Positions 4,125 to 24,080 of a DNA stretch of 40,571 nucleotides are shown here, one piece after another. Source of the DNA: an uncultured Desulfobulbaceae bacterium (GTDB lineage Bacteria > Desulfobacterota > Desulfobulbia > Desulfobulbales > Desulfocapsaceae); assembly GCA_903887485.1 (NCBI GenBank), contig CAISPV010000010.1:1-40571 (forward strand), in the 5' to 3' direction. Each line of letters opens with the position of its first letter. Position 1 is the stretch's first letter. Position numbers and translations under genes: made by a program. The notes beneath the pieces are model-generated. The model did not search any database and was not told the origin of the DNA. It worked only from the letters and a program-made list of their open reading frames with translations.

Positions 4125-4201
4125 CGGGGAGTGGCTCAGTCTGGTAGAGCGCGGCGTTCGGGACGCCGAGGTCGGAGGTTCGAATCCTCTCTTCCCGACC
4201 A
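4125..4201 (+). tRNA. tRNA-Pro (anticodon CGG), CCA encoded
   Basis: A 77-nt cloverleaf: acceptor CGGGGAG pairs with CTTCCCG (one G-T), the anticodon stem CGGCG/CGCCG encloses loop TTCGGGA with anticodon CGG, and the T arm contains GGTTCGAATCC. Discriminator A and CCA are encoded. Its 3' end is the apparent integration site of the island that follows. Confidence 0.97.
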
Positions 4202-6704: not shown

Positions 6705-7901
6705 TCAATGTATCAGGTTACGGTACAGTACTGCTGTTTTTTCGGCTACGCTGTCTATATGAAAACGCTGTTTAAAGCTTAAACTGCCGGCTGCTCCCAT
6801 TGTAGCACGAAGTTCGGGGTTATCCCGCAACTTAGTTAAACTCGCAGCTAGTTCCTGCACACTTCCGGGAGTAACGAGGAGCCCTGTTTTCCCATTTTCA
6901 ACTACCCAGCCTACACCTGAACCGGGAATGTCGGAGGCCAGCAGCGGCGTGCCAAAACGCATGGCCTCTGGTAAAACCAGACCAAAGGCTTCAGTGCGTT
7001 CTACCGATGGAAGACAGAAACAGTCACAGCTTGCCAGTAGCGCGTGTAGTTTTATGTCCGGTAGTTTTCCTGCCAGTGAAATTTTATCACCTGCTCCCAG
7101 TGAGGCAATCAGGGCAGCCAGCTTATCGTGCTGATCTCCCTCACCCAGAATCAAGGCTCTACTGCCTTCCAACTTTTCCATGGCCCGGATCAGAATTTCA
7201 TGCCCTTTATAATATGTCAGCCTGCCCACAGATAGTATTCTGAATTTGCTTGTTCCCCATAAATTTTCTGCCCAGACGCGCGTTTCTTTATCCGGGAGGG
7301 GTAGACGTTCCGGATCAATGCCTAGAGGAATCACATGGGCTTTATTTTTCCAGGGTTGCAGTGGTTTACTGCTGTTAAGGTACGGTGTGGAGGTTGCTAT
7401 AATTGCCTTTGAGTTGGCCAGAAGTTTCTGTTCAAAAGGCCGATAAAAATTGTATGCAATCAGCATCCTTTTATCAATGCGTGAAGGAACAACGTCGGCG
7501 TGCCAGTGGATGATCCAGGGGATTTTCCGTGCCGCCGAAACAGCCAAGGCCCAGAAGGGTGAAACATTGGGCAGATGGATATGGAGAATTTGGGGACGAA
7601 ATTCTTTGATTTTCCTGGATAACCATAAAGGAAAAGTAGGACTGACCGGTGTATAAAGAAGACTGCCCAGACAGGGAACCCGCCAGATTCTTTCGGCAGT
7701 ATCAGCGGCGATACTTTCCTGTGTTGTCCCGCTGTTTCTGGATTTATGGGCATGAACCAGAGCCCCTGTCCGTACTCCGGATCTTTCTAGAGCCGGGAGA
7801 AGATCTCCGAGGAAATTCTCTATACCTCCGGCATAGGGTGGATAAAATTTACCGAGATGAAGAACCCGAAGCTGTTGGGTTTCCCCACAAAGATTACTCA
7901 T
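6705..7901 (-). CDS. Glycosyltransferase family 4 (GT-B, GT1/GT4 type)
   Basis: 398 aa with the two Rossmann-like halves of GT-B enzymes. The N-terminus has VLHLGKFYPPYAGGIENFL, the usual beta-1/glycine loop of GT4 acceptor domains. The C-terminal half has ILSVGRLTYYKGHEILIRA and the nucleotide-sugar E-x7-E motif in TEAFGLVLPEAMRFG. There is no signal peptide, so it should act at the cytoplasmic membrane face. It overlaps the upstream GT2 gene by 8 nt and precedes the DUF2304 gene. The donor sugar cannot be read from sequence; the likely job is adding a sugar to a lipid-linked intermediate. Confidence 0.9.
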   Translation of the reverse strand: MSNLCGETQQLRVLHLGKFYPPYAGGIENFLGDLLPALERSGVRTGALVHAHKSRNSGTTQESIAADTAERIWRVPCLGSLLYTPVSPTFPLWLSRKIKEFRPQILHIHLPNVSPFWALAVSAARKIPWIIHWHADVVPSRIDKRMLIAYNFYRPFEQKLLANSKAIIATSTPYLNSSKPLQPWKNKAHVIPLGIDPERLPLPDKETRVWAENLWGTSKFRILSVGRLTYYKGHEILIRAMEKLEGSRALILGEGDQHDKLAALIASLGAGDKISLAGKLPDIKLHALLASCDCFCLPSVERTEAFGLVLPEAMRFGTPLLASDIPGSGVGWVVENGKTGLLVTPGSVQELAASLTKLRDNPELRATMGAAGSLSFKQRFHIDSVAEKTAVLYRNLIH

Positions 7902-9231: not shown

Positions 9232-10227
9232 ATGAGGAATAGTATAGGACAAAAACGTTTATCATTTTGGGAACATACTTTTGCTTTTATAGGGAGGAAA
9301 ACCAGATTCCTGCAGCCCTCTTTTGTCCAGTTCGGGGCCCAATATCCGCCCAGGGAATGGAATCTTGCAAAAAACAGAACGCGTTCTGCGTTGCCAAATG
9401 ATACTCCGAGAATTTCAATCGTTATCCCTTCATATAAGCAAGCCGCTTATCTTGAAAAAACGATTACAAGCCTGTTAAGTCAGGACTACCCGGCGTTGGA
9501 GCTTATCGTTGTTGACGGTGGCTCTGATGACGGTTCAAAAGAGATAATTGAAAAATACTCTGCGCACATAAAATGGTGGTGCAGTGAGCAGGATTCAGGA
9601 CAAACAAATGCTCTCAACAGAGGCTTTGCGCAAAGCTCCGGTGAAATAATGGCCTGGTTGAATTCCGACGACATGCTTATGCCAGAAACGCTTAACCGTG
9701 TTGCAGCCTATTTTGCTCACTACCAAAATGTTGATGCTGTATATGGCCACCGGATTCTTATTGATGAGGAAGATAGAGACATCGGTCGTTGGATAGTGCC
9801 AAAGCATGACGATAAGGTCATGACATGGGCAGATTTCATCCCCCAGGAGACACTTTTCTGGAGAAGGTCGCTGTGGCAAAAAGCTGGCAAAAAACTTGAT
9901 GAGTCTTTTAAGTTTGCCATGGACTGGGATCTTCTGCTGCGATTCCGGGATGCTGGTGCACGTTTTGTCAGGCTGCCTTACTTTCTTGGACTTTTTCGTG
10001 TCCATGCTGGGCAGAAGACATCTGCCCAGATCAATGATGTTGGTTTTGCTGAGATGCAAAGGTTGCGAAAAAGGTGCCTGGGCTATACTCCACATCTAGG
10101 CAGAAAAAGATTCGGTGAAGATAATTATTTAAAACAATATAGAGTGGCTTTGGGAACTGCTTTTTATTTGTTGAAAGCTCGAGTCTGTGAACTTTTATGG
10201 AAGGCGGGACTAATCAAATATGACTGA
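9232..10227 (+). CDS. Glycosyltransferase family 2
   Basis: 331 aa. An N-terminal extension of about 55 residues precedes the GT-A domain: ISIVIPSYKQAAYLEKTITS, LIVVDGGSDDGSKEII, DSGQTNALNRGF, and the DxD-type WLNSDDMLMPETL. The DGGSxDGS / SDxGQxxAxNxG / NSDD series is typical of GT2 enzymes from O-antigen, capsule and exopolysaccharide clusters. It is first of the right operon and overlaps the next GT2 by 8 nt. A GAGTAG stretch just ahead of the ATG is a weak SD. Cytoplasmic; sugar specificity unknown. Confidence 0.9.
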   Translation: MRNSIGQKRLSFWEHTFAFIGRKTRFLQPSFVQFGAQYPPREWNLAKNRTRSALPNDTPRISIVIPSYKQAAYLEKTITSLLSQDYPALELIVVDGGSDDGSKEIIEKYSAHIKWWCSEQDSGQTNALNRGFAQSSGEIMAWLNSDDMLMPETLNRVAAYFAHYQNVDAVYGHRILIDEEDRDIGRWIVPKHDDKVMTWADFIPQETLFWRRSLWQKAGKKLDESFKFAMDWDLLLRFRDAGARFVRLPYFLGLFRVHAGQKTSAQINDVGFAEMQRLRKRCLGYTPHLGRKRFGEDNYLKQYRVALGTAFYLLKARVCELLWKAGLIKYD

Positions 10228-10975
10228 ACCGTTGATTACCATAGCCGTTCCCTCTTTTAACCAGGGTCAGTTCCTCAATAAGGCATTGGAATCCATATTC
10301 TCTCAGGATATTCCTGTGGAGGTGTTTGTCCTTGATGGTGGTTCAAGAGATAATTCTGTGGAGATCATCAAAAAATGGGAATCGAAAATAACCTGGTGGC
10401 GGAGTGAACCGGATGATGGGCAGTCGGCTGCAATCAATGAAGGTATCGCAAAAGGCAAGGCTCCTTATGTCTGCTGGCTCAATTCAGATGATTATTTTTT
10501 GCCTGGTGGTTTGGGCATCCTCTGTAATACTTTGGAAGAGGCTCCACAAAGCCCAGCCGCATACGGTAAATGCCTGACCGCAAGACCGGATGGCAGCACT
10601 TTTGCCCACTATCTGACAGCTCCTTTCTGGCCGTGGCTGCTAGCGAATTATTGTTTCATCTGTCAGCCCGGAACCCTCATGCGAAGGAACGTATGGGAAA
10701 AAGTCAGCGGACTTGATGAAAACCTGCACATGGCCCTTGATTATGATTTATGGTGGCGAATTTATAAAGCGTATGGGAATTTCAGATATGTGAGGCAAGA
10801 TGTTGCGGCAACCATTATGCATGGAGAGACAAAAACCGCATCACAGCGTAAGGCCCATTACACGGAAGCAATGGCGGTTGTCAAGAAACATACAGGACAT
10901 ATCCCGCTTAAGTGGTATTTAGCTTGGCCTTTTATGGTTAATTTGCGGCAGTTTTTACAGCAGCAAAAAAGATGA
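10220..10975 (+). CDS. Glycosyltransferase family 2
   Basis: 251 aa. GT-A signature elements in order: ITIAVPSFNQGQFLNKALES, VFVLDGGSRDNSVEII, DDGQSAAINEGIAKG, WLNSDDYFLPGGL, then HMALDYDLWWRIYKAYG, matching the downstream acidic catalytic region of the neighbouring GT2. Its ATG lies inside the end of the upstream gene (8-nt overlap), implying translational coupling. It resembles the upstream enzyme closely enough that the two may be paralogues adding successive residues. Confidence 0.9.
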   Translation: MTEPLITIAVPSFNQGQFLNKALESIFSQDIPVEVFVLDGGSRDNSVEIIKKWESKITWWRSEPDDGQSAAINEGIAKGKAPYVCWLNSDDYFLPGGLGILCNTLEEAPQSPAAYGKCLTARPDGSTFAHYLTAPFWPWLLANYCFICQPGTLMRRNVWEKVSGLDENLHMALDYDLWWRIYKAYGNFRYVRQDVAATIMHGETKTASQRKAHYTEAMAVVKKHTGHIPLKWYLAWPFMVNLRQFLQQQKR

Positions 10976-11101
10976 CCTATGCTTTAAGACTTAATTTATA
11001 AGTAAAGTAGAATGTTGCTTAGAGGCGTGTAATGACCGTGAAGATCAAATCGTCACGTTTATTGTTGTTGTGTTTTTGAAAATAATTTTTTGAGAGAAAA
11101 A

Positions 11102-13534
11102 ATGATTGTCTGGCTTGCTTCATATCCTAGATCCGGAAACACATTCATGCGGATTGCACTTCACTCTTTTTTGAAATGCGACACATACTCAATATACAAT
11201 GACATGAAGGATATTGGTGCAAACAAGCAACTTTCCTCAGTCGTAGGGCATCATATTCTTAAGGAAGGGGACCTGGAAAGAATGGCTGCAGAGGATGAAT
11301 ATTATTTTGTAAAAACGCATCACCTCCCAGAAGATCTCCTTGCCAATTCAAAAATAATTTACCTCGTTCGTGATGGACGTGAGGCATCGTTGTCTCTTTC
11401 ACGTTTTTCATCAAAATTTGAAAATGACCCATTGAGTTTTTCAGATGTGGTTGCAGGTAAACACGAATTTGGTGCTTGGCATGAACACATTGACAGATGG
11501 GCATCTGTAGGTTCTGAACGACCAGAGAATTTTTTTACAGTTAAATTTGAAGATCTCATTGGGTCTCCAGTTGAGCATGTGAACAAAGTTTTCTCTTTTT
11601 TGGGACTTGAAGCAAAAGAAGGTGTAATCCCGAATTTCAAACAATTGACATCGGTGAGCAGCAAGTTCTTTGCCAGTGGTAAGACGGACTCTTGGAGGAG
11701 TTCTATAACACGTAGTGAGCACTGCTTCTTTTGGTCTCGCAGTCATAAGCAAATGATAAAACTAGGCTATTTGAATGACATGCCGGAAGTTTTTGAAAAC
11801 AGTTCTTTCGTGGAAGTCATCGAGTTGATAGATGATATGTACAATAGCTCAAAAGAGAGTTTTGAAACTACCCATGAGATCCGAAAAAGAGTTAGTGTTT
11901 TGGAGTTGGGTATCTCTACGGTGGAGAAACGAGCTGAGTGCCTAGGGATTGAGTTGGCTGCGGAGAGGAAAAGATCGGAGGGCCTAGAGAGTGAGTTGGC
12001 TGCGGAGAAGAAAAGATCGGAGGGCCTTGAGAGTGAGTTGGCTACGGTGGAGAAACGAGCCGAAGGTCTTGATGGAGACCTTGCAGCCGCCCAGAAACGA
12101 GCCGAGGTTCTTGATGAAGACCTTGCAGCCGCCGAGAAACGAGCCGAGGGTCTTGATGAAGACCTTGCAGCCGCCCAGAAACGAGCCGAGGTTCTTGATG
12201 AAGACCTTGCAGCCGCCGAGAAACGAGCCGAGGGTCTTGATGGAGACCTTGCGGCCGCCCAGAAACGAGCCGAGGGTCTTGATGAAGACCTTGCAACCAC
12301 TCAGAAGCGAGCAAAGGGGCTTGATGATGAGCTGGCAGAAACGAGAAAGACAAATGACAAAGTGACAAGAAAGTTAAACGAGCAGCAACGTGTTAATGAA
12401 ATTATCAGATATACGCTGGAGGAAGAAAGATCCGTTCCGCCACTTTTGCGAACCCTAAGACAACTTTTAAGCCTTCGACCCCTTACTAAAACATCTGTTT
12501 GTCCGCCTAAAGAAGAACAAGGGCCTCTGCCCTCTCTAAAAGAGGAGAAAAATAAACCAGAAGTTCTTCCTCGTGGCCAAGTTTCTATTGGTGATGGTGA
12601 CACTATTGGTCCAAATCAACCACATATTATGTCGGGGTCTAACTGGGAACATTTGTCTTCAGCAATCCGTGAGGAAGTGGAGGCTGTAGGGGTTGAATTT
12701 GTTCCTGAACTAGAGTCAGCCGTTCTAGCCGGGAATAAACCACCTGTTGGGCAATGGACTGCAATAGCCCATGTGCCGTCAAGATTTCCAAAATGGATGA
12801 TCAATACCGAAGTATATAAACCATTCACCAAAAATCTTTTTGCATCCACGGCTTGGAAAAGGGCAGGGAAGCGTTGCAAAGTAATTTTCACATACTCCGA
12901 AGATTATGCAGAATCTCTTGCTAGCCAGACAGAGATAAAAATCATCGCCCTGAAACATCCCTTGCCCAAGATAGCAAACAAATGGTCATGGGAAGCTTTT
13001 GAGGCCAATAAGAACAAGCAAATAATCCAGTCAGGCTGGTGGCTTGGTCGGATGCATGCCATTCATCTTTTACCGGAGTCGGATTACAGCAAATTGTGGA
13101 TTCGTAATCCTGGACAGGGGATGGATACTGTTTTTGCTGCTGAGCGGGATCATCTGAAAGAGCGCATGATGTTTTTCGACCATATGGATAAATCTGTTAC
13201 CGTTTCAGATGAATTGCCCCCGAGGGAGTATGAAAAACATCTTTGTGCAAATATTGCTTTTGTTCACTACTATGATGTCAGCTCTCCGGATCTCCTTTTG
13301 CACTGCATCGCCAGCCACACGCCTATCCTGATAAATGCACTTCCTGCTGTCAGGGAATATCTGGGCGATGACTATCCGCTTTATTATTACTTTTACAAGG
13401 ATGCAGTGGATAAGGCTTCTGATTTTACCCTGGTGCGAAAAGCACATGAGTATTTAAACAAATTATCCCAGGAAATGAATGTAAATCCTGATGCTATCGC
13501 AAAGCAGGTCCGAAAGGCACTGGAGAATAAGTAA
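11102..13534 (+). CDS. Sulfotransferase - coiled coil - glycosyltransferase-like fusion
   Basis: 810 aa from the ATG at 11102; an in-frame TTG at 11090 is a less likely start. Residues 1 to about 255 look like a PAPS-dependent sulfotransferase: 5'-phosphosulfate loop WLASYPRSGNTFMR (near 7-14) and 3'-phosphate motif IIYLVRDGREASLSLSRF (near 87-96). Residues about 270-430 are a long coiled coil made of a 14-residue repeat (KRAEGLDEDLAAAQ type). Residues about 500-810 resemble a GT-B half-domain (KLWIRNPGQGMDTVF; LLLHCIASHTPILINALPAV) but I cannot name the family. It ends directly against the next ATG. I infer coupled sulfation and glycosyl transfer on a surface glycan; the coiled coil may oligomerise it. 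Confidence 0.72.
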   Translation: MIVWLASYPRSGNTFMRIALHSFLKCDTYSIYNDMKDIGANKQLSSVVGHHILKEGDLERMAAEDEYYFVKTHHLPEDLLANSKIIYLVRDGREASLSLSRFSSKFENDPLSFSDVVAGKHEFGAWHEHIDRWASVGSERPENFFTVKFEDLIGSPVEHVNKVFSFLGLEAKEGVIPNFKQLTSVSSKFFASGKTDSWRSSITRSEHCFFWSRSHKQMIKLGYLNDMPEVFENSSFVEVIELIDDMYNSSKESFETTHEIRKRVSVLELGISTVEKRAECLGIELAAERKRSEGLESELAAEKKRSEGLESELATVEKRAEGLDGDLAAAQKRAEVLDEDLAAAEKRAEGLDEDLAAAQKRAEVLDEDLAAAEKRAEGLDGDLAAAQKRAEGLDEDLATTQKRAKGLDDELAETRKTNDKVTRKLNEQQRVNEIIRYTLEEERSVPPLLRTLRQLLSLRPLTKTSVCPPKEEQGPLPSLKEEKNKPEVLPRGQVSIGDGDTIGPNQPHIMSGSNWEHLSSAIREEVEAVGVEFVPELESAVLAGNKPPVGQWTAIAHVPSRFPKWMINTEVYKPFTKNLFASTAWKRAGKRCKVIFTYSEDYAESLASQTEIKIIALKHPLPKIANKWSWEAFEANKNKQIIQSGWWLGRMHAIHLLPESDYSKLWIRNPGQGMDTVFAAERDHLKERMMFFDHMDKSVTVSDELPPREYEKHLCANIAFVHYYDVSSPDLLLHCIASHTPILINALPAVREYLGDDYPLYYYFYKDAVDKASDFTLVRKAHEYLNKLSQEMNVNPDAIAKQVRKALENK
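11923..12342 (+). repeat. In-frame 42-bp tandem repeats encoding a coiled coil
   Basis: About ten 42-bp (14-codon, two-heptad) units lie end to end. Units from about 12043 to 12306 are nearly identical, alternating as 84-bp pairs (GAGGGTCTTGAT / GAGGTTCTTGAT), while outer units are diverged. The length is a multiple of 3, so copy changes keep the frame. The open minus-strand and +2 frames across it are by-products of the repeat. Confidence 0.9.
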
Positions 13535-15940
13535 ATGAAAATTTCCATCATAACCCCATCCTATAACAGCGCTGACACACTCGAGCAGGCCATCGAAAGC
13601 GTTCTGGAGCAGAAATGCAAAGACTTTGAGCACATAGTCGCGGACGGTGGCTCCACTGATGGGACTGTGGATATTCTCAAGAAATATCCCCATCTGAAGT
13701 GGATCAGCGAACCGGACAATGGCCAGGTAGATGCCATGCACAAGGCATTTGCCATGTCTAACGGTGTTATCATCGGCAATCTCAATGCCGATGATTATTA
13801 TCTCCCTGGCGCGTTTAAAGCTGTCCTGCCGCATTTTAAGGCAGGCGAAAATTTTGTAATGGGAAAAGTGGAAGTGGTCGCTGAGCATAACCAGACCACA
13901 TGGATCAACGACCCGGAGTTCGAGCTTGAAAAGATGCTCAAGCACTGGGCACCCAATGCCTTCTGTGTCAACCCGATTGGCTATTTCTACCGGCGCGAGG
14001 TACAGGAGTCCGTGCCCTTCAGCCTGGAGAATGATGACAAGCATGATCTTGAATTCCTGCTGGAGGCAGCCGCCAGGTATTCGATAAAAAAGATCAACAC
14101 CGTGCTTGGTGTTTTCTCGCACGTCATGAAAGCTAAAACCTTTACCGAACAGATTCGGCCGAGCTACTGGTGCAGGGAAAACTTCGCTTTTTTAGATCAT
14201 CTGGTTGCACAGATGCCTGCGGATTATCAAAAAAGTTTTCGTTTCGAACAGGAGCGTGGCTACCAACTGCGGCGAAAATGGACCATACAGGATGCCATTA
14301 GGCTTGGCCATGCCGAGGATTTGCTACATAGGGGCGAACTTTTTTTTCTTCCCGAAGATGAAAACGAATCCTGGTCCAGTCGTTGTGCATTTGTTGAGTT
14401 TGACAGGCCGGCGGCCAAGGGAGACTGGGTCATACCTGTGCTCACCATGGGCAAAGTGGCCAGCAGGGCTATCTGTAAGGCCTTGAAAGATCTTCCCGCA
14501 GAAATTCTTCCAGCTCAAGTCTACCATGCTCACCAAATCAACGAAGTTCTTATTGAAAAGTTTGCCCTTCCCTACGAAGTGCCGCACTCTCAGGCAGCAA
14601 TAGGACTTGCATTAAATAAGGTTTTTTTCAACCATGGGGATACATTGCAATGGAAATTTATTGCCGGAGTGCGTGAGCTAATCGGAGGTGGGCTTTCTGG
14701 AGTTTTCGAAATTCATCAAGGTGAAGTAGAAGAAATGGAATCTGCAGTCTTGAATGTGGCGAATTATTACATTAGCCATTTTGACTTCCATTATAGAGAT
14801 TCACTCGGAGTTGATGTGTTCAAATATGATTTCGACACTAAAAAAGGGTACACGATCATCAAACAAGGCAATGTAGAGGTCCTTGTTTACCGCTTTGAGG
14901 ACTTACCGCGAATTTTCCCAATGGCAATAGAAGATTTCCTGGGTATTCCTGATGTAAAGCTTCCCAGTACGAACATCGCTTCTCAAAAGGATTACGCTGA
15001 AGCCTACCATCAAGCTAAAAAAGAAATTCGATTTGAAAAAAAAGTGTTAGACGAAATTTATTCAAGCAAGATGGTAAGGCATTTTTATACTGAGGAAGAA
15101 ATTGATGGATTTTACCAAAAGTGGTGTAAGCAGAGTTCTGCAGATCCATCAATTAAAGCGGCTAGGGAAAAAAAATTATATAAAGTGCCAACATCAATTT
15201 CTATCTCTGAAAATTCGACATTGACCATTGCTGGCATTCCGATAGCTTCTTTTTCATACGCAAAAAAAACACACTTTAACCGTTTAAAAATTAAATACGG
15301 TGAGATTTTCCCCCAGTCTACTGAAGAGCTAAAATATTATCAGGATCTTGTTATATTAGCTTTTATCTCTGAAAATATTCCCCAAGGCTCAAGGTTGTTA
15401 GAGATTGGAGGCGGGCATTCGCGTATTCTAAACTTTTTCAAGAATAACTACGAATGTTGGAATCTCGATAAATATGAAGGGATAGGTAATGGGCCTAGAG
15501 ACAAACCTGAATCAGACCATTTAGGCTATACTTGGGTAGATGGATATATTGGAGAGTTTCATAAGGATCTTCAGGACAACTATTTTGATTTCGTTTTTTC
15601 CATATCAGTCCTTGAACATGTACCATGGGATGACGAAAAAATATTTAATGATATCATTGCAGATTGTAACAGAGTTCTTCGACCAGGTGCGTATTCAATG
15701 CATCTCATTGACATGGTTATGCCTGGTTGGAGGCATCCCATAATCGAACATATCTTTAATATTCAACCGATGCTCACAGAGTTAATTGCTTTTTCTGAAA
15801 TTATCGCGGATAAGGATTTATATTTTATGTCTAAAAAAGAGTACGAAAGGACGTGGGTGCATACAACAAACAAGTCTTATGAAGAATTTGGACAGCCTAG
15901 CAGCTATAACCTTATTTGGCGAAAAAACAGGAAAGTTTAA
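13535..15940 (+). CDS. Three-domain fusion: GT2 - sulfotransferase-like - SAM methyltransferase
   Basis: 801 aa. Residues 1 to about 270 are a GT2 domain (ISIITPSYNSADTLEQAIES, VADGGSTDGTVDIL, DNGQVDAMHKAF, NADDYYLPGAF). Near residue 297 begins WVIPVLTMGKVASRAICKAL, like the MGKVGS motif of the putative capsular-polysaccharide/sulfotransferase-related family (PF10364-like); this assignment is tentative. From about residue 610, LLEIGGGHSRILNFF, FDFVFSISVLEHVPWDD and NRVLRPGAYSMHLI give a class I SAM-dependent methyltransferase. The gene abuts the upstream stop (TAA then ATG) and lies in the right operon. Codons after about 14650 look more AT-rich than the GT2 part, so the fusion may be recent. 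Confidence 0.78.
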   Translation: MKISIITPSYNSADTLEQAIESVLEQKCKDFEHIVADGGSTDGTVDILKKYPHLKWISEPDNGQVDAMHKAFAMSNGVIIGNLNADDYYLPGAFKAVLPHFKAGENFVMGKVEVVAEHNQTTWINDPEFELEKMLKHWAPNAFCVNPIGYFYRREVQESVPFSLENDDKHDLEFLLEAAARYSIKKINTVLGVFSHVMKAKTFTEQIRPSYWCRENFAFLDHLVAQMPADYQKSFRFEQERGYQLRRKWTIQDAIRLGHAEDLLHRGELFFLPEDENESWSSRCAFVEFDRPAAKGDWVIPVLTMGKVASRAICKALKDLPAEILPAQVYHAHQINEVLIEKFALPYEVPHSQAAIGLALNKVFFNHGDTLQWKFIAGVRELIGGGLSGVFEIHQGEVEEMESAVLNVANYYISHFDFHYRDSLGVDVFKYDFDTKKGYTIIKQGNVEVLVYRFEDLPRIFPMAIEDFLGIPDVKLPSTNIASQKDYAEAYHQAKKEIRFEKKVLDEIYSSKMVRHFYTEEEIDGFYQKWCKQSSADPSIKAAREKKLYKVPTSISISENSTLTIAGIPIASFSYAKKTHFNRLKIKYGEIFPQSTEELKYYQDLVILAFISENIPQGSRLLEIGGGHSRILNFFKNNYECWNLDKYEGIGNGPRDKPESDHLGYTWVDGYIGEFHKDLQDNYFDFVFSISVLEHVPWDDEKIFNDIIADCNRVLRPGAYSMHLIDMVMPGWRHPIIEHIFNIQPMLTELIAFSEIIADKDLYFMSKKEYERTWVHTTNKSYEEFGQPSSYNLIWRKNRKV

Positions 15941-15941
15941 A

Positions 15942-18536
15942 ATGATTATCAATAAAGAGTGCTTTATTTCTGTTGCAGTTTGTACTTATCGCCGTTTTGA
16001 TTGGTTGAAGAAATGTTTGGAGAACATAAAAAATCAGACATTGCCTCAAAGTCAATTCAAAATCATTGTCATTGACAACTCCCTTCAACCTGATCAATCA
16101 CGAGCTTTTTGCGATTCGCTCGTGGGCTTTGACAATCTAGAATATATTATTACCGATCGTTGTGGTATAGGCTATGCCAGAACAGTGGCTATGGATAAAT
16201 GTAGCACTGAATTTCTGGCATTCACCGACGACGATTGCCTGGTTCCTCCAGACTGGGCTGAAAACATACTTAAAGCCTTTGATCGACATGGAGAAGGAGT
16301 TGGCGTTATTGGAGGACGAGTTGAACCCAACTGGGAAACACAAAGACCGGCCTGGTTGGACGACGACCTCCTTCCTCCCCTTGGCCTCATAAACTGGGGG
16401 GGTGATAAGGATATATTTATTGATCATAATGCTTCGCAGTGGCTTTTGACTGCCAATGCAGCTTACCGTACCACGGCTTTGCGAGCAGCCGGAGGATTTC
16501 CTCCCCACCTGGGGCGTAAACGTAAACTTCCCTTGGCGCAGGAGGAATTTGCCGCAAATGATGCAATGAAAGCCTTGGGCTACGATCTTGTTTACTCGCC
16601 TGCGCTGACGGTTCGGCATTTTATTCCGACTGCACGGGCAAAACAAAAAATGCTTTGTCGGGACGCATTTTGGGATGGCGTTTCGCAAGTACTTTTTAGA
16701 AGTCACGATGTGGCCATGGATGACGTCGATCATCTTTCCGACATACTTGTCCCTTTACAGGAAAAACTTATAACTGGTTTCGTTGAGTTTTCTTTGACCA
16801 AAGATCTCAAAGAAAAGATCCAGAAAATGCGTGAAGCAGGATGGAAAGCAGCTCGAAAATCTTTGGGGGGTAAAGTATTTGACGGTGATATTGGCGAGCG
16901 GCAATTGCCGGTTATTTATATAGTCACGCCTTGCATGAATGCTGCAGGCACCATCGATCAGACAATTATAAGCGTTTTAAGTCAGGCAGGTGGATTCTGT
17001 ATACGCTATCACATTCAGGATGGTGGTTCTACGGACGGCACACTGGAGAAACTTGCACAATGGAAGGAACGATTGGCAAAAGATTCTTTCCCCCTGTGTT
17101 GCAGAAACGTTGTGTTCACTTTTGCAAGTGAACAAGACCAGGGCATGTATGATGCTTTACAAAAAGGTTTCGCAACCATGTCAATTCCGGTCACTGCATT
17201 CATGGCCTGGATAAATGCAGATGATATCTTCCTGCCGTTCGCGTTCGACAATATCGCGCATATTCTAAAATTCCATTTTAAAGAAGTATGGTGGGTGGGG
17301 GGAAAAGTCGCAGTATTTGATGAGGATCGGAAAACATGGCAAATGCCTGAAAGAATCATACCCAGTGAGATTGTCAAGCACGGGTTGTGTGATGGCCTGC
17401 ACTGGGATTTTGTCCAGCAGGAAGGGACCTTTTTCCGAAAAGCGGTTTGGGATAAAGCCATCGAGGAAGGAGTATTTGATGGTTTTAAGTTGGCGGGCGA
17501 TTGGAACCTCTGGCGTGTTTTTGCCCAACAAACCCAATATTTCCAACTCCCCTGGCCGCTTGGGACTTTTCGGAAACACGAAGGACAACTTTCTCAAAAA
17601 CGGTGGGAGGAGTATAAAGCGGAGATCGATGCCACGGTTAGTCCATCTGAACGCCGGGAATTATTCATGAAACTTTTAAATCAAAAAAATCTTTGTTCTG
17701 CCGGGTTGAAGGAAGATCCTCAATCGGGGAGGCTTGTCATTGCGTATGAAAATGCAGACGCTTTAGCCGAATATTATAGAAACAGATTAGGCATTGCCGC
17801 CAACATCCTCTCAAAATTATCTAGGAAACAGCCTACTTCCCTAACTGAAGAGCAAAAGCCTCAAGAGTCTATACCTGTGCAGGCAAGTAAACGACCTTCT
17901 TTGCCTCCGGACCCAACTAAAATAGTTCTCGGCCCTGGGTGGCAGGCCGTAAAAGAGGATTTTTCTGACTGGCAGCGTTGGTCCTCACAATCTGGTATTC
18001 TGCATCTTAAGACAGGCAAAAGCGGAAGGGGAGAAATTTCCTTTTCTATCATGTCAATGCTCGAGGATAACCATGTCAACCTGAGCCTGAACGGGCAATT
18101 GATCAGCACGGTCCAGGCAGGTCGGAACGAGAGTAGGGTAGATCCTGTTGCGCTTAGCATGCGGCGAGGCACAAATATTCTTGAATTTTCCTCGGACAGG
18201 AAAGATGAACTTGTAGATGGAGAACCGGTGCAGCGCAACTTTATGGTGAAGGATCTAGATCTTGCACCACCACGGGGTGTAAGTTTCAGTCTTGCTTTTT
18301 ATGTCAATCTGCGAAGGCTTATTCGGTCAGGGATGTTTTTTGCTGGCTATTACAAAAATCAGGTCCCTGAAACAGACTCGCCGGCTGAACACTATTTGCT
18401 TTATGGGGCTTGGGAGGGTAAAAACCCAAATCCGCTTTTCGATTCGGCTTTTTATCTTGATACTTATCGTGAAGTTTATCGTGCAGGCATGAACCCTTTG
18501 CTGCATTACATTATGTTTGGCTGGATGGGCAGGTAA
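15942..18536 (+). CDS. Dual GT2 glycosyltransferase with C-terminal repeat domain (truncated by frameshift)
   Basis: 864 aa from the ATG at 15942, 1 nt after the previous stop; an in-frame upstream start at 15786 would lie inside the preceding gene and is rejected. The first GT-A domain spans about 5-250 (ISVAVCTYRRFDWLKKCLEN, DRCGIGYARTVAM, FTDDDCLVPPDW). The second starts near 323 (VIYIVTPCMNAAGTIDQTII, IQDGGSTDGTLEKL, WINADDIFLPFAF). Residues about 655-765 look like a beta-sandwich. The end has repeats of the form HYLLYGAWEGKNPNPLFD ... AGMNPLLHYIMFGW, common at the ends of large glycosyltransferases. The next repeat is cut by TAA at 18534-18536 but continues in another frame. Probably assembles part of the exported glycan. 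Confidence 0.8.
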   Translation: MIINKECFISVAVCTYRRFDWLKKCLENIKNQTLPQSQFKIIVIDNSLQPDQSRAFCDSLVGFDNLEYIITDRCGIGYARTVAMDKCSTEFLAFTDDDCLVPPDWAENILKAFDRHGEGVGVIGGRVEPNWETQRPAWLDDDLLPPLGLINWGGDKDIFIDHNASQWLLTANAAYRTTALRAAGGFPPHLGRKRKLPLAQEEFAANDAMKALGYDLVYSPALTVRHFIPTARAKQKMLCRDAFWDGVSQVLFRSHDVAMDDVDHLSDILVPLQEKLITGFVEFSLTKDLKEKIQKMREAGWKAARKSLGGKVFDGDIGERQLPVIYIVTPCMNAAGTIDQTIISVLSQAGGFCIRYHIQDGGSTDGTLEKLAQWKERLAKDSFPLCCRNVVFTFASEQDQGMYDALQKGFATMSIPVTAFMAWINADDIFLPFAFDNIAHILKFHFKEVWWVGGKVAVFDEDRKTWQMPERIIPSEIVKHGLCDGLHWDFVQQEGTFFRKAVWDKAIEEGVFDGFKLAGDWNLWRVFAQQTQYFQLPWPLGTFRKHEGQLSQKRWEEYKAEIDATVSPSERRELFMKLLNQKNLCSAGLKEDPQSGRLVIAYENADALAEYYRNRLGIAANILSKLSRKQPTSLTEEQKPQESIPVQASKRPSLPPDPTKIVLGPGWQAVKEDFSDWQRWSSQSGILHLKTGKSGRGEISFSIMSMLEDNHVNLSLNGQLISTVQAGRNESRVDPVALSMRRGTNILEFSSDRKDELVDGEPVQRNFMVKDLDLAPPRGVSFSLAFYVNLRRLIRSGMFFAGYYKNQVPETDSPAEHYLLYGAWEGKNPNPLFDSAFYLDTYREVYRAGMNPLLHYIMFGWMGR

Positions 18537-18669
18537 GGATCCGCATCCTGAATTCAGTACCAGGCGTTATTTGGAGGCCTATCCGGCGGTAGAGAAGGCA
18601 GGCATGAACCCCCTTTTCCATTATCTGAAATACGGAGTGTTGGATGGGAGAAAAATTATCTTTTGTTAA
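18537..18669 (+). pseudogene. Out-of-frame continuation of the preceding glycosyltransferase
   Basis: Reading codons from 18532 gives GKDPHPEFSTRRYLEAYPAV and AGMNPLFHYLKYGVLDGRK, then TAA at 18667. This is one more copy of the C-terminal repeat of the upstream protein, one frame off. One extra base near 18520-18533 would explain the break; a sequencing error or a real frameshift are both possible. Confidence 0.75.
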
Positions 18670-18748
18670 GAAACAAACCTGTATAGCTTTAGCTATAAGC
18701 CATTACCCTAACTGCTACATTTTGATTGTTGAACTTATTTAGAAAGAT

Positions 18749-19528
18749 ATGAAAAAGAAACAAAGTCTTAAACATTATATTCAACTTATCCAGTTAAAGG
18801 TTGCTGCCAATCTTCGAGCTGAGGCAGCGCGGAATTACCTCAGCTATCTCTGGTGGATTTTTGAGCCGATTCTTCATATGCTGGTGTACTATTTTGTCTT
18901 TGGTATGTTGTTGGCGCGTGGTACGGAGAATTTTTCTATTTTTTTATTGACAGGGCTTATCCCGTGGCTCTGGTTTGTTAAGACCATTACAAATTCCATG
19001 GGGAGTATAAGCCAGAACAAGGGATTGATGATGCAGGTGCATATTCCCAAGATTGTTTTGCCGACTATTGTTATATGTCAGGATGCCGTGAAACAGACTG
19101 TGGTTGTTGCCTTGCTTCTTCTGTTTTTAGTTCTTGCTGGTATTGAGCCTTCCTGGTCTTGGAGTGCTTTACCCTTACTCCTTATTACCCAAATTCTTTT
19201 AATTGCTGCTTGTGCATATCTGGTTGCTGCTGTCGTCCCTTTTCTTCCTGACTTGAGTTTTTTGATAAGTATGGGGTTGCAGATGCTTTTCTTCTGTTCC
19301 GGGATATTTTTTAAGGTAGAGGATGTGATTTTGGATAAGCATCTAAACCTCTTCTACATGAATCCCATGGCGAATCTGCTGAAAAATTATAGGAATATTC
19401 TTCTTTATAATCAGTGGCCTGACTGGCAGGCGCTTATAATTATAGTTGTATTATCTCTGGTGTTTATCTTTGTCATGTCACTGGTGATACGAAAGTTTGA
19501 TCACGTCTATCCAAGGGTTGTGCTATGA
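18749..19528 (+). CDS. wzm: ABC-2 type polysaccharide exporter, permease (Wzm/KpsM-like)
   Basis: 259 aa with an amphipathic N-terminus (LIQLKVAANLRAEAARNYLS) followed by LWWIFEPILHMLVYYFVFGM and about six hydrophobic segments, the layout of ABC2_membrane transport proteins for O-antigen, capsule or teichoic-type polymers. It contains TNSMGSISQNKGLMMQVHIP and the late PMANLLKNYRNILLYNQWPD, usual for the family. It overlaps the ATPase start by 4 nt (ATGA). It should form the inner-membrane channel exporting the lipid-linked glycan made by the upstream enzymes. Confidence 0.92.
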   Translation: MKKKQSLKHYIQLIQLKVAANLRAEAARNYLSYLWWIFEPILHMLVYYFVFGMLLARGTENFSIFLLTGLIPWLWFVKTITNSMGSISQNKGLMMQVHIPKIVLPTIVICQDAVKQTVVVALLLLFLVLAGIEPSWSWSALPLLLITQILLIAACAYLVAAVVPFLPDLSFLISMGLQMLFFCSGIFFKVEDVILDKHLNLFYMNPMANLLKNYRNILLYNQWPDWQALIIIVVLSLVFIFVMSLVIRKFDHVYPRVVL

Positions 19529-20244
19529 GTGGTAAGGATATTCTTATTTCAGTCCGGAATGTCGGCGTGCGATTCATGAGCCGCAGATCTCTCTTTAATC
19601 GCGACTATGTTGAAGCGCTTAAAGATGTCTCCTTTGATTTCCACCATGGTGACTCCCTTGGGGTCATCGGTAGGAATGGGGCTGGCAAGACAACTCTGCT
19701 ACGTCTTTTGGGTGGAATTATTCATCCAGATACAGGGGAAATTATTAACAATGATGCCAGCACTGCCCTGTTGTCTCTGCAGGTCGGGTTTGACCCGGAA
19801 CTGTCCGGTCGAATCAATGTGGTGTTGAGTGGCATGATGCTCGGATTCGACAGGAATTATGTAGAAGAAAACCTCGACAAGATCATCGCTTTTTCAGAAT
19901 TAGGAGAAGTTATAGACAGGCCGGTAAAGTCATATTCTACTGGAATGAGCGCGCGGTTAGGCTTTTCCGTAGCCTTGGAATTGAATCCTGATGTGCTGCT
20001 GATCGACGAGGTGATGGGAGTTGGAGATGTTGAGTTTCGCGAAAAATCTACTGCAGTAATGAAGGAGAAACTTCTGTCAGATCAAAGTATTATTCTTGTC
20101 TCGCACAGTGCGGGCACAGTGAAAAATCTCTGCAATCGAGCGGTTTGGATCGAGGACGGGGTTACGCAGATGGAAGGTGATTCCGCTGAGGTTGTAGAAG
20201 CATACGAAAGATACATTTGTGATAATGGGAAGGGAAAAAAGTAA
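19525..20244 (+). CDS. wzt: ABC-type polysaccharide exporter, ATPase (Wzt/KpsT-like, short form)
   Basis: 239 aa nucleotide-binding subunit. Walker A is GRNGAGKTT (49-57), the signature is YSTGMSARLG, Walker B is VLLIDEVMGVGD and the switch His is in ILVSHSAG. Together these are typical of Wzt/KpsT/TagH. The chain stops after the ATPase domain, so it lacks the C-terminal carbohydrate-binding domain of the longer Wzt proteins that recognise a capped O-antigen terminus. It is coupled to the permease gene and is the last clear member of the exporter unit. Confidence 0.92.
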   Translation: MSGKDILISVRNVGVRFMSRRSLFNRDYVEALKDVSFDFHHGDSLGVIGRNGAGKTTLLRLLGGIIHPDTGEIINNDASTALLSLQVGFDPELSGRINVVLSGMMLGFDRNYVEENLDKIIAFSELGEVIDRPVKSYSTGMSARLGFSVALELNPDVLLIDEVMGVGDVEFREKSTAVMKEKLLSDQSIILVSHSAGTVKNLCNRAVWIEDGVTQMEGDSAEVVEAYERYICDNGKGKK

Positions 20245-20562
20245 TTACGAACTGTAAATGGCGTCGTCAAGTACTTTGATCTACTTCGAGGCAGTGTGTT
20301 TTCAAAGATCCGTGACATTTAAAAACTGGCTGTCACCTCTCTTCTGTCACAGTTCTGTGGGTAAACAAAAAGTTGACAGGGTATGTTGATTTCGATGCTT
20401 TTTTCATACAGTTACCGATGTTTGTCGAATCTCAACTATTTTACGAATGACCCATAAAAAGTCGGTTGTGAATTGGCAGTTTACTAGAGATAAGGCCAGA
20501 ATCAAACTGGCACGCCTCTATCCGTCAATTGCCACTTGACATGACACTAGGGAGTTGAATCA
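20245..20562. other. 318-bp gap with insertion-sequence debris
   Basis: No intact gene. The right part codes for a transposase C-terminal tail (separate entry). The left part contains direct CTGTCAC copies (about 20324-20350) and fragments I cannot place. The gap suggests FkbM was joined to the operon through a former IS. Confidence 0.5.
20447..20539 (+). pseudogene. C-terminal remnant of an IS630-type transposase
   Basis: The frame ending at TGA 20537-20539 reads KKSVVNWQFTRDKARIKLAR and then LYPSIAT. VNWQFT-x3-ARIKL-x-RLYP is, from memory of the family, the usual tail of IS630-type DDE transposases. The catalytic domain is missing. Confidence 0.55.
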
Positions 20563-21279
20563 GTGGAAATGCTAGAAATTGTTGAAAAGTTAGTAAGCCT
20601 TTTGCCCAGTTCTGATGGTGGGGGGTGGATCATTGATGGAGGATGTCATTTTGGCGAGTTTGCCAGTTGTGCGATCAACAAATTTCCGACATCAAATATA
20701 TTATCGTTTGAGCCTGATTCAGATTCATGGGAGTGTGCTCAAAAAAACATTGGCTTTCACGATCAGATTGAAATTGTGAAGGCGGCACTTGGTGCCAAAA
20801 AAGGTCAGGCTGAATTCTTTAGGGGCCCGTGCTCAGCCACAAACTCATTGCTGCCTAGACCCGTGGAAGAATTGAGGCCCTATTACCCCAAACAGGCTTT
20901 CCTCAAGGGCGGAACTATTGTTGATGTCTTTACGATCGATGAGGAGTGTGAAAAGAGGGGAATCAAAGAGGTAGACGTTTTAAAACTTGATCTTCAGGGC
21001 GGTGAATTGGCGGCACTTGGTGACGCTCAGGCCTTACTTGAATCGGGATTGGCCAAAGTAATTATTATTGAGGCTGTTTTTATTAAAAAATACCAGAACC
21101 AACCTCTACTTTGGGAAATCTGGCGCTACCTGGAGGCATATGGGTACACTTTGTACTCATTAGAAGAAATAAAGATTGGCTTGTATCATACCGAGAAGAT
21201 CAGTCTGAGACATGGTCAATGGAACCAGTGTGATGCTATTTTTATAGCCAGATCGATTCGCAGGGTCCTAGACAAGTAA
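20563..21279 (+). CDS. FkbM family SAM-dependent methyltransferase
   Basis: 238 aa from a GTG at 20563 with GGAG eight bases upstream; an ATG at 20569 is an alternative. The domain begins WIIDGGCHFGEFASCAINKF (glycine-rich SAM loop, as in FkbM enzymes), then ILSFEPDSDSWECAQKN (acidic residue for SAM ribose) and VDVLKLDLQGGELAALGDA, the FkbM LKxDxQGxE signature. FkbM proteins O-methylate sugars or polyketides. At the end of a glycan cluster it probably methylates a sugar of the exported polymer. It is separated from the exporter by IS debris and may have its own promoter. Confidence 0.9.
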   Translation: MEMLEIVEKLVSLLPSSDGGGWIIDGGCHFGEFASCAINKFPTSNILSFEPDSDSWECAQKNIGFHDQIEIVKAALGAKKGQAEFFRGPCSATNSLLPRPVEELRPYYPKQAFLKGGTIVDVFTIDEECEKRGIKEVDVLKLDLQGGELAALGDAQALLESGLAKVIIIEAVFIKKYQNQPLLWEIWRYLEAYGYTLYSLEEIKIGLYHTEKISLRHGQWNQCDAIFIARSIRRVLDK

Positions 21280-21741: not shown

Positions 21742-23682
21742 TTACTTTCCGTTCCATCCATTTTGAGTACAAATCCAAAGTGTGCCGTTGGCAGTGGGGT
21801 CAATTTTCATTCGCCCATACTCCACGGCTTCATCGCAATCTGTTGAAGGAGGGATGCCACTGACGGTGTCCAATTGAAAATAACCTTTTACTTGGAGTCT
21901 GCTGTTAGGTACGGTCGTGCCGATACCAACATTGCCAACTGGGAATGATACAGTTTGATTTCCGACGATACTGAACATCTCTTTGAAAATTGGGCCTGGT
22001 GAAATATGTCGTATACTGAATTTAGCATCTGGCAAATTAAAAAGAGATGAACCGTAATCAAACATTGCCCAACCGTTATATAGACCCTGATAATCATTTG
22101 GCCCAATAAATGCGATACGAGGGGCATAATCCGCTGGATCACTCGCCATAACAGTCATTCGGCTATTGGTCAGCCCGGTAGTGATTTGGGCGTGAGAGGA
22201 GCCCCCTGTGTGTCCCATGACCTGCATCTTATAATCATTTCCGGTGCCAGTCTCTACGCTGAAGACCTTGCCACCAGTCGCATTCTGCACGTCAAGGCTG
22301 TGTCCTGGAGTTGCTGTTCCGATTCCAACATTCTGAGCGGTTGTCACCTTGCCGCTAGCATCGGTCCATGAAGAGGTCCCGGACGGGCCAGTCGCGCCGG
22401 ACGGGCCCGTATCGCCCTTAAGACCAGGAGCGCCATCATTACCCGGTACACCCTGAGGACCAATAGCACCCTGGGATCCGGTAGCACCCTGAAGACCGTT
22501 AGTGCCATCCTTACCCGCTACACCCTGAGGACCAATAGCACCCTGGGATCCAGTATCACCCTTAAGACCAGGAGCGCCATCATTACCCGCTACACCCTGG
22601 GGTCCGGTAGCGCCCTGGGATCCGGTAGCACCCTGGGGTCCAGCAGCACCCTGGGATCCGGCAGCACCCTGCGGGCCAGAAAACATGGCACTAAATGCTA
22701 CCCCGCCGGCGAGATTTTCTATTCCAACAATGCCTCCCGTGGCGACCTTAAAGGCAGTTGCATCAGCGGCTGATCTGAAGAAACCCCTATGATAACAATC
22801 TGCATCATGTTGGTAGAAAGCGGAAACGTATGCAAAATCTTTAACCTGGTAGCAAACATCCTTAGCGCATGTAAGCGGTGTACCGCTCGGTGTTGCATCC
22901 GTATATTCGAGAGGAGACGCGGCTGCGGCCGGCAGGCCTCCGGCATAATTCCCGGACTCTACATACATTCCCGATTTGCCAAAGCCGCTCTCGCCGAAAT
23001 GGTTATCTCCAGTGACTATCACATTCAAAGGAGTAGGTATAGGAAACGACTTTCCAAAGACGGCAATACCAAGGCCGCCCCATTGGTTATCTTCCGTGTA
23101 GATATTTTTCACAGTGACATTTTGCGAATCCATCATGTAAACACCGGCGCCACCATTCTGCACGGACGTGATGTTGACAAGCGAAACGTGATCAGCCCCG
23201 TTCAGGTTGACGCCGGACTTTCCGAAGCCGGTAACCGTGACATCCTGAATCGAAATATTGGTGGTGCCCGACATGTTGACGCCATAGAACGGCTTGTGGT
23301 CTGTGCCTGAGTTCGCCGGCCAGCTCAAGTACTGAGACATGTTGCCGTCAATGGTTACGTCCTTGATGATCAAGCCGGTTGCGCCTGCTGGAATATCCAT
23401 GAATATTGGATTGGCTGTAGAGGCCATGCCATTCAGTATTTTCGTCACGTGGGCGCCCGCACCCTTAATGGTGAGGTTGGGTGTATTTATGGAAAGTGGT
23501 GACGTAATCGAATACGTTCCTGCGGCGAGATTGATGGTATCGCCGCCGGTTGCGCCTGAGATGGCGGCCGCCAGGTCAGCACCATTTGTCAGATTGGTGG
23601 TGATAGCCCATGCCGGAGCCGCCATACAGACCCCCAGCGTTACTGCTGCCAAAATAAACCTGGATTTTCTTAAACCCATCAT
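21742..23682 (-). CDS. Secreted parallel beta-helix / collagen-like surface protein
   Basis: 646 aa. A signal peptide (basic MMGLRKSRF, hydrophobic stretch, cleavage after APAWA) is followed by a right-handed beta-helix region (about 28-260; ITSPLSINTPNLTIKGAGAH, NISIQDVTVTGFGKSGVNL) like pectate-lyase-fold surface proteins. Residues about 336-437 are 34 unbroken Gly-X-Y triplets (GPQ, GAT, GND, GAP, GLK, GDT), a collagen-like stalk. The C-terminus has repeats like VGIGTATPGHSLDVQNATG and VGIGTTVPNSRLQVKGYFQL, seen in phage-tail-fibre-like and surface proteins, and ends CTQNGWNGK. AGGAGGGG lies 5 nt before the ATG at 23682; a second ATG at 23679 is also usable. The leader carries a c-di-GMP riboswitch. 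I infer a trimeric adhesin or matrix protein. Confidence 0.82.
   Translation of the reverse strand: MMGLRKSRFILAAVTLGVCMAAPAWAITTNLTNGADLAAAISGATGGDTINLAAGTYSITSPLSINTPNLTIKGAGAHVTKILNGMASTANPIFMDIPAGATGLIIKDVTIDGNMSQYLSWPANSGTDHKPFYGVNMSGTTNISIQDVTVTGFGKSGVNLNGADHVSLVNITSVQNGGAGVYMMDSQNVTVKNIYTEDNQWGGLGIAVFGKSFPIPTPLNVIVTGDNHFGESGFGKSGMYVESGNYAGGLPAAAASPLEYTDATPSGTPLTCAKDVCYQVKDFAYVSAFYQHDADCYHRGFFRSAADATAFKVATGGIVGIENLAGGVAFSAMFSGPQGAAGSQGAAGPQGATGSQGATGPQGVAGNDGAPGLKGDTGSQGAIGPQGVAGKDGTNGLQGATGSQGAIGPQGVPGNDGAPGLKGDTGPSGATGPSGTSSWTDASGKVTTAQNVGIGTATPGHSLDVQNATGGKVFSVETGTGNDYKMQVMGHTGGSSHAQITTGLTNSRMTVMASDPADYAPRIAFIGPNDYQGLYNGWAMFDYGSSLFNLPDAKFSIRHISPGPIFKEMFSIVGNQTVSFPVGNVGIGTTVPNSRLQVKGYFQLDTVSGIPPSTDCDEAVEYGRMKIDPTANGTLWICTQNGWNGK
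22372..22677 (-). repeat. Collagen-like Gly-X-Y coding repeats
   Basis: 306 bp encode 34 consecutive G-X-Y triplets. Larger blocks are duplicated: the segment with CCCTTAAGACCAGGAGCGCC (plus strand) occurs near 22416 and 22559, and ACCCTGAGGACCAATAGC near 22450 and 22522. Length variation by recombination is expected and stays in frame. Confidence 0.9.
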
Positions 23683-23964: not shown

Positions 23965-24022
23965 ATCCACATGCGCTTGCAGGCTACCCGATATCAGGTA
24001 ACCCGGCTATCCACTTGCGCTT
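23946..24022 (-). repeat. Tandem duplication of the riboswitch 3' half
   Basis: Two copies of about 32-33 nt containing GCGCAWGTGGATAGCCGGG (minus strand) lie at 23991-24022 and 23946-23978, with one substitution and one indel. The first copy completes the aptamer; the second copy forms the 5' arm of the terminator. Confidence 0.85.
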
Positions 24023-24080
24023 GTGATGGACCCGTGGCTTTCCGTCCCTGCCTTACGACAGGTTTGGCATTTTCATGGAT
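23980..24080 (-). promoter_or_regulatory. Cyclic di-GMP-I (GEMM-I) riboswitch aptamer
   Basis: The minus strand reads TGCCAAACC, a small stem (TGTCGTAAGGCA), GGGACGGAAAGCCACGGGTC, a variable arm, then GGATAGCCGGGTTACC. This is the order of conserved elements of GEMM-I aptamers (GGCAAACC ... GGGACGCAAAGCC ... GGTAGCGGGGTTACC in the Vibrio Vc2 RNA). It lies between a sigma-54-type promoter and an intrinsic terminator upstream of the collagen-like gene, so c-di-GMP probably controls transcription read-through. Whether the ligand turns the gene on or off cannot be decided by eye. The ends are approximate. Confidence 0.85.

Follow-up and report, generated by a model that had tools for sequence, protein, structure and literature searches.

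A sulfotransferase joined through a repeat-built coiled coil to a probable pseudo-glycosyltransferase in a Desulfobulbaceae polysaccharide locus

An 810-residue protein encoded on contig CAISPV010000010.1 of an uncultured Desulfobulbaceae bacterium (40,571 nucleotides, hereafter the window; gene at 11102-13534, forward strand, ATG at 11102) joins three modules in one chain: a sulfotransferase domain of the type that uses 3'-phosphoadenosine-5'-phosphosulfate (PAPS), a long coiled coil and a C-terminal domain with a predicted GT-B fold. As the best explanation of the whole, we favor, tentatively and at close to even confidence, a tethered sulfotransferase with a non-catalytic dock that acts in surface-polysaccharide assembly dependent on an ATP-binding cassette (ABC) transporter. 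In this model, the N-terminal domain would transfer sulfate from PAPS onto a growing or finished glycan, presumably that of the locus, while a coiled coil of ~27 nm would keep the sulfotransferase away from the C-terminus. The GT-B-fold domain, descended from a working glycosyltransferase, would have lost the residues for holding a nucleotide sugar and would instead offer a dock or glycan-binding module to the GT2-NKWYS-methyltransferase protein, the product of the abutting gene. In this way, the rod would set the distance between the sulfation site and the polymerizing site, with sulfate as a terminal or late modification, as in the rulers WbdD and WbbB.

Three modules in one open frame

The reading frame was uninterrupted from 11090 to 13534, with its earliest ATG at 11102 and a TAA stop at 13532-13534, and the ATG of the next gene (13535) abuts without a gap; the limits that an earlier note on this DNA had given were therefore exact. 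Along the chain, the PAPS-dependent sulfotransferase domain (PF00685; 11108-11716) is followed by the coiled coil (11888-12433) with its 42-bp tandem repeats (11925-12338), a linker with several Pro, Lys and Glu residues (12434-12604) and the GT-B-fold domain, a probable pseudo-glycosyltransferase (12605-13531), all on the forward strand. The claim of that note that the three modules share one chain was confirmed by the Pfam match, by the 42-bp repeats with a 3.50-residue period and by an AlphaFold2 model.

Two observations would fit a functionless relic or assembly artefact, arising from a chance in-frame join or a mis-assembled repeat: the guanine-cytosine (GC) content of the parts is patchy (sulfotransferase 39.9%, coil 52.5%, GT-B domain 44.0%), and among 395 genomes of the phylum the full chain was found in its own genome only, with the copy in genome G089 cut inside the coil. 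We regard this explanation as very improbable, as the frame holds 810 open codons with the next ATG abutting, the sulfotransferase core is conserved, and a coil-type region, the C-terminal domain and a GT2 gene recur together in the two closest relatives, the loci L003 and L004 (the latter from G089).

Sulfotransferase domain and PAPS supply

The N-terminal domain matched Sulfotransfer_1 (PF00685) with an E-value of 5.7e-21 and 75.5 bits (cut-off 22), and its solved relatives (40 distinct PDB sequences at E <= 0.01) include Teg12, Teg14, StaL and cytosolic SULTs. With these it shares the PAPS-binding and catalytic motifs of the family, that is, the 5'-phosphosulfate-binding (PSB) loop SYPRSGNT (aa 7-14), the catalytic K-x-H (K71-T-H73) and the 3'-phosphate-binding R90...S98, and it has W198; whereas they were solved as single-domain enzymes, the window protein is a coil fusion with an altered RKG loop. 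Motif conservation was assessed in an alignment of 45 rows, comprising the window protein, the 40 best-scoring of 83 open reading frames from viral contigs and four genome sequences. K71, H73 and R90 were kept in all 45 rows and S98 in 44. The loop residues S7, P9, S11 and G12 were likewise present in 45 of 45, a count that is partly given by construction, because the 40 viral rows had been fetched by the loop pattern; independent support came from the alignment of SYPRSGNT with the Teg12 loop and with six genome sulfotransferases. With the same order and place as in Teg12 and other sulfotransferases, the motifs appear well placed to bind PAPS, and the domain is presumably active.

Related sulfotransferases were found in 23 of the 395 phylum genomes, own genome included, with 25 matches in all. 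In the closest (L025; E 5.4e-21, 33%), the sulfotransferase is free and ends in what looks by eye like a short heptad-type tail; the next gene encodes an FkbM methyltransferase (PF05050, 49.5 bits) whose tail looks similar, again by eye. Only two further matches lay in long frames: L046 (genome G385), in which tetratricopeptide repeats (TPRs) and a sulfotransferase share one frame, and L051:5592-9188 (genome G346), a 1199-residue chain of TPR, GT41, methyltransferase and sulfotransferase that unites modules for glycosyl transfer and sulfation.

PAPS can probably be made by the host, since its genome holds two full-length matches to adenosine 5'-phosphosulfate (APS) kinase (216 and 212 bits), both on one other contig, and a third, partial match elsewhere (21.7 bits, barely above the cut-off of 21.1). 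The contig with the two full-length APS kinases also carries a second sulfotransferase gene. In this region (L019:8466-9083, reverse strand; L020:13943-14572 and 10141-10962, the last on the reverse strand), the two APS kinase genes lie ~25 kb apart and the surrounding genes look, by eye, like polysaccharide genes.

A coiled coil built from two-heptad repeats

The coiled coil spans ~182 residues, corresponding to ~27 nm if fully helical, and its hydrophobicity shows a period peak at 3.50 residues (aa 263-446). In 56-residue segments whose first residue is aa 239 or lies between aa 295 and aa 421, only 0 to 8 of 300 shuffled sequences scored as high; the signal was weak in three segments spanning aa 253-336 (50 to 75 of 300). 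At the DNA level, Tandem Repeats Finder reported two arrays of 42-bp period (11925-12055 and 12051-12338), and ten units of 14 residues (42 bp) can be laid out from aa 277 to aa 416, with the units at aa 333 and aa 361 identical in their DNA. As each unit is two heptads long, gain or loss of a unit preserves both the reading frame and the heptad register. The chain presumably forms an oligomer. Matches of the region to tropomyosin, CENP-F, SMC, Rad50 and similar Pfam and NCBIfam models fell below cut-off and were dismissed as cross-matches between coiled coils.

We also scanned the region following the coil for a conserved amphipathic membrane helix. It found no support in the window protein, where the best 18-residue segment, a possible short helix at the beginning of the linker, was unconvincing (61 of 2000 shuffles as high), or in L004 (271 of 2000). 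Three segments of L003 scored higher, with 0, 3 and 10 of 2000 shuffles reaching their values. L003:1-3366 encodes, in one chain, coil-type repeats, then a trio of segments that by eye resemble one another and 'SxRWxxGN', followed by a GT4 glycosyltransferase and a decayed GT-B domain; the trio may represent helices that bind a membrane or a partner.

Predicted fold of the C-terminal domain

Sequence searches with the C-terminal domain returned no significant Pfam family, no PHROGs match at E 0.01 and, in a phmmer search of the PDB, chance-level matches only (E 0.24 and worse). Interleukin-6 receptor chains (E 0.24) and a pyrrolysine-tRNA ligase profile (E 0.035) were both rejected as chance. 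The one NCBIfam match was weak and far under the cut-off (selenosugar synthase SenB, TIGR04348, E 0.021).

Structure prediction was more informative. An AlphaFold2 model built from 54 rows (the window protein, L003 and 52 viral sequences) reached a predicted local distance difference test (pLDDT) score of 90.8 and a predicted template modeling (pTM) score of 0.90, superseding an earlier, poor model from three rows (pLDDT 43.6). The model shows the two Rossmann-type domains of a GT-B fold, and its best solved match was again SenB (Z 19.5, root-mean-square deviation 3.7, 269 residues; VIA-align). Overall, 719 of 998 compared chains reached Z >= 8, and the 50 entries listed were all glycosyltransferases. 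The top match among viral models was a glycosyltransferase of Pyramimonas orientalis virus (TM 0.74). In BFVD, relatives of the domain family in giant viruses carry the name WcaK-like pyruvyl transferase.

SenB, itself of GT-B fold, has in common with the domain a short motif around TPxL...LG-DY; identity in the fold alignment is 10%, and the active-site Glu of SenB is replaced in the window protein. VldE, a pseudo-glycosyltransferase that reportedly catalyzes a coupling, was also among the fold matches. It has a GT-B fold and was solved with GDP bound, according to the title of entry 4f9f, and its likeness to the window domain is one of fold. Profile comparison (hhalign) of the domain family with the GT4 enzyme encoded in the window itself (6705-7901) gave nothing, and comparison with a GT4 from genome G339 gave a probability of 95, the G339 protein having been preselected by a profile of the same family.

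Loss of signature residues in one clade

We then asked which conserved residues the domain retains. Among the 52 viral rows, 44 columns were conserved in at least 80%, and the window protein departs from the family in 15 of these. Eight of the 44 were taken as a signature set (H511, R512, G514, R649, A728, N729, N730 and E734); as they were picked after a small alignment had been seen, the resulting count is descriptive rather than blind. None of the eight is kept in the window protein, and one each in L003 and L004, with the three N-terminal positions of L003 lying in a gap and scored as losses. The other bacterial copies keep all eight (L005, L006 and L010) or six (L204), and 35 of the viral rows keep eight, five keep seven, five keep six, six keep five and one keeps two.

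Two positions, lost alike in the window protein, L003 and L004, deserve closer attention. R649, an Arg in 51 of 52 viral rows, is Gly in the window protein, and E734, a Glu in 43 of 52, is His. The E734 column aligns with a Glu of SenB, although this profile alignment is weak (E 0.17-0.28). Judged from that alignment and from GT4 motifs, both positions would contact the donor. The presumed donor-site residues of a GT4-like enzyme are missing from the window domain, in which the Glu of the C-terminal motif and the Arg after the first strand of the C-terminal Rossmann domain are both replaced.

In the tree, the window protein, L003 and L004 form one clade (support 100/100, branch length 1.46), and the intact, stand-alone L005 is its probable sister (89/84). 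Since the decayed copies form one clade, residue loss and coil linkage coincide once in the tree and count as one event, not three.

Because most signature residues of the family are lost, the C-terminus is more likely a pseudo-glycosyltransferase, a dock rather than an enzyme. The earlier note had proposed that it carries out glycosyl transfer next to sulfation. At the level of sequence and prediction, its glycosyltransferase fold was borne out by the model and the SenB match, and its placement of the PAPS motifs also held; glycosyl transfer itself found no support, as the window protein and its two closest relatives have lost nearly all of the eight signature residues. A bifunctional chain, with an active glycosyltransferase of unusual active site that would combine sulfation and glycosyl transfer, is in our view unlikely. 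It would account for the well-formed GT-B fold and for the invariant residues that the three decayed copies retain among themselves, and the L051 chain shows that glycosyltransferase-sulfotransferase fusions occur elsewhere. Yet seven to eight of the eight signature residues, including those at positions 649 and 734, are gone from all three copies, while SenB retains the Glu aligned with position 734.

Distribution of the domain family

The domain belongs to an uncharacterized family found on many viral contigs and in few of the sampled bacteria. With the window sequence as query, it was detected in four of the 395 phylum genomes, own genome included, and with a five-row profile in six, two of them at weak E-values. 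The single-sequence query found it in none of 57 other genomes sampled from the genus, family and order; a sample of the class (n = 257) added a single case, more distant (G538), and both copies detected among 85 genomes of G089's class were already known. Further occurrences were one Desulfobacteraceae metagenome-assembled genome and one Crinalium plasmid, the only plasmid match; INPHARED phages gave no match to the domain. Viral contigs contributed 68 matches in 69 loci (L053-L121), some contigs having been fetched twice, which reduced to the 52 distinct rows used above. These copies often occupy frames of ~325 residues, and the members scanned had no Pfam or PHROGs match. A scan of ten longer viral frames showed a GT1/GT4 domain above cut-off in two and weak matches or nothing in the others.

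The contexts of the domain vary. It stands alone in L005 and, by frame length, in L204, follows TPRs in L006 and L010, and follows a GT2 domain in a viral frame of L049. In L003 it comes after a coil-type region, whose N-terminal repeats are coil-like by eye (charged, Pro-free), and a GT4; in L004 it comes after a coiled coil with a strong heptad signal (0 of 1000 shuffles as periodic). The family combines the lack of a Pfam match with a presence on many viral contigs, and one of its clades has apparently turned from enzyme to scaffold.

Neighboring genes

The gene lies in a polysaccharide block (9232-21279) encoded on the forward strand. Two GT2 glycosyltransferases precede it (9232-10227 and 10220-10975; Pfam), and the abutting gene (13535-15940) encodes the probable partner, with GT2 (aa 4-155), NKWYS (aa 409-519) and methyltransferase (aa 622-720) domains by Pfam. 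There follow tandem GT2 glycosyltransferases with a further C-terminal part (15942-18536; two PF00535 stretches), a Wzm/KpsM-type ABC-2 polysaccharide exporter permease (18749-19528; PF01061), a Wzt-type ATPase of 239 residues (19525-20244; ABC_tran and weaker P-loop ATPase models) and an FkbM methyltransferase (20563-21279; PF05050). In NCBIfam, KpsM and galactan permease models match the permease below their cut-offs, and the best model for the ATPase is the galactan Wzt/RfbE (178 bits, below the cut-off of 400).

A GT2 gene within ~20 bases after the domain gene is shared by the window, L003, L004, L005 and L006. It encodes a GT2-NKWYS protein in L004 (scanned as L021), and a GT2-methyltransferase with no NKWYS match in L005 (scanned as L022); in L006 the encoded GT2 is short, and in L003 it is truncated where the contig ends. 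On the plasmid from Crinalium, the domain gene is followed by one annotated as SMP-30 and then by a glycosyltransferase.

The NKWYS domain (PF10364) may be sulfotransferase-like. Its profile aligned with that of sulfotransferases at E 2.4e-4 and probability 44 (hhalign; controls 0.037 and 0.46), a single-sequence comparison gave a probability of 2.5, a stand-alone member matched Sulfotransfer_2 below cut-off (E 0.053), and the PDB held no relevant match to the domain. By eye, the stand-alone members L206 and L207 show a GRVAS-/GGVGS-type loop together with R-[ED]-P...S and R-[FL]-EDL motifs.

The GC content of the block (43.9%) is lower than that of its flanks (50.6 and 51.8%), so the block is consistent with a foreign origin. 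A tRNA-Pro (cgg) gene at 4125-4201, close to where the lower-GC stretch begins, is a possible integration site. Adjoining the block is a c-di-GMP-I-GGC riboswitch (23993-24077, reverse strand, 69.9 bits), and the product of the gene just downstream of it (21742-23682, reverse strand) combines collagen-like repeats with a beta-helix.

Weighing the evidence for a proposed docked sulfotransferase

Several findings weigh against a tethered sulfotransferase with a non-catalytic dock. Within the sulfotransferase, the RKG loop near the C-terminus reads FASG, although this position varies across the alignment, with R in 25 of 45 rows and A in the window protein. In the GT-B domain, many residues are invariant among the three decayed copies, given which the domain may be an active enzyme with altered chemistry, and the viral row that keeps two of eight signature residues (L055) shows that decay is not limited to coil fusions. 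The heptad signal of L003, reached by 52 of 1000 shuffles and with a best period of 5.9, is weak; L003 and L004 end at contig ends inside their coil-type regions, leaving the window as the only source of the full three-part chain; and G089 is not among the 23 genomes with a match to the window sulfotransferase. At the locus, the neighbor's methyltransferase or its possible second sulfotransferase-like domain could itself be the terminator. The GT2 gene also follows the intact, non-coil copies L005 and L006, which makes adjacency alone no argument for docking. Finally, a Pfam scan detected no C-terminal carbohydrate-binding module in the Wzt-type ATPase, and a search of the open literature, with most subscription journals outside its coverage, found no ruler in which a sulfotransferase caps the chain with sulfate.

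A Wzt that lacks the module for reading a terminal cap would also suit a tethered decorator without a ruler, which sulfates internal residues along the chain while the coil merely holds the enzyme near the complex. Sulfated bacterial capsular polysaccharides are indeed reported, with mention of a sulfotransferase in the same papers (PMC11641403, PMC11766843). We nevertheless rate this explanation as rather improbable, since a rigid repeat coil that keeps its register would seem to exceed the needs of a simple tether.

For the tethered sulfotransferase with a dock, a WbdD-like ruler with terminal or late sulfate is plausible but unproven, by analogy, because the order of modules is that of WbdD and WbbB and the repeats keep the heptad register. 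The most specific version, in which sulfation is the terminating step, a dead glycosyltransferase of a family common on viral contigs recruits the polymerase and sulfate marks where a polysaccharide exported by the ABC transporter stops growing, appears unlikely as a package. If true, a sulfotransferase in the ruler position would extend the coiled-coil ruler principle to sulfated glycans, and the number of heptads would offer a simple genetic handle on sulfate placement.

Comparison with coiled-coil rulers

Sulfated capsules or exopolymers are named in the literature for Vibrio, Cobetia, Pontiella and cyanobacteria, and the remark of the earlier note that bacterial sulfated polysaccharides are uncommon outside a few groups is a fair one. 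Rulers made of coiled coils are established devices for setting polysaccharide length. In those described in PMC11231755, one end of the coil bears a terminator and the other bears either the polymerase or the site that recruits it; in the O-antigen systems of Klebsiella, the distal end of the coil carries the terminating enzyme, apart from the polymerizing modules, and the carbohydrate-binding module of Wzt reads the capped end. The end-enzymes of the Klebsiella and E. coli rulers described there add methyl, methyl-phosphate or 3-deoxy-D-manno-oct-2-ulosonic acid (Kdo) (PMC11231755). In group 3 capsule clusters of E. coli, coil length varies among putative methyltransferases (PMC13171606).

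Against this background, the window protein resembles two kinds of ruler. Like WbbB of K. pneumoniae O12 and ORF6 of O7, it combines a terminator-type enzyme, a coil and a glycosyltransferase-type module in a single chain (PMC11231755). The C-terminal glycosyltransferases of WbbB and ORF6 are active polymerases, whereas the single GT-B domain of the window protein is probably inactive and the GT2 candidates for polymerase lie in neighboring genes. Like WbdD, the kinase-methyltransferase of E. coli O9a and K. pneumoniae O3, it places a modifying enzyme at the N-terminal end of a long coil whose C-terminal end, in WbdD, meets the polymerase, and does so in an ABC-transporter locus (PMC11231755). 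It differs in having a sulfotransferase instead of a kinase or methyltransferase and in a Wzt that lacks the carbohydrate-binding module. The C-terminal ends differ as well: the recruitment site of WbdD includes an amphipathic helix, whereas the window protein has a GT-B domain that is folded and probably a pseudo-enzyme.

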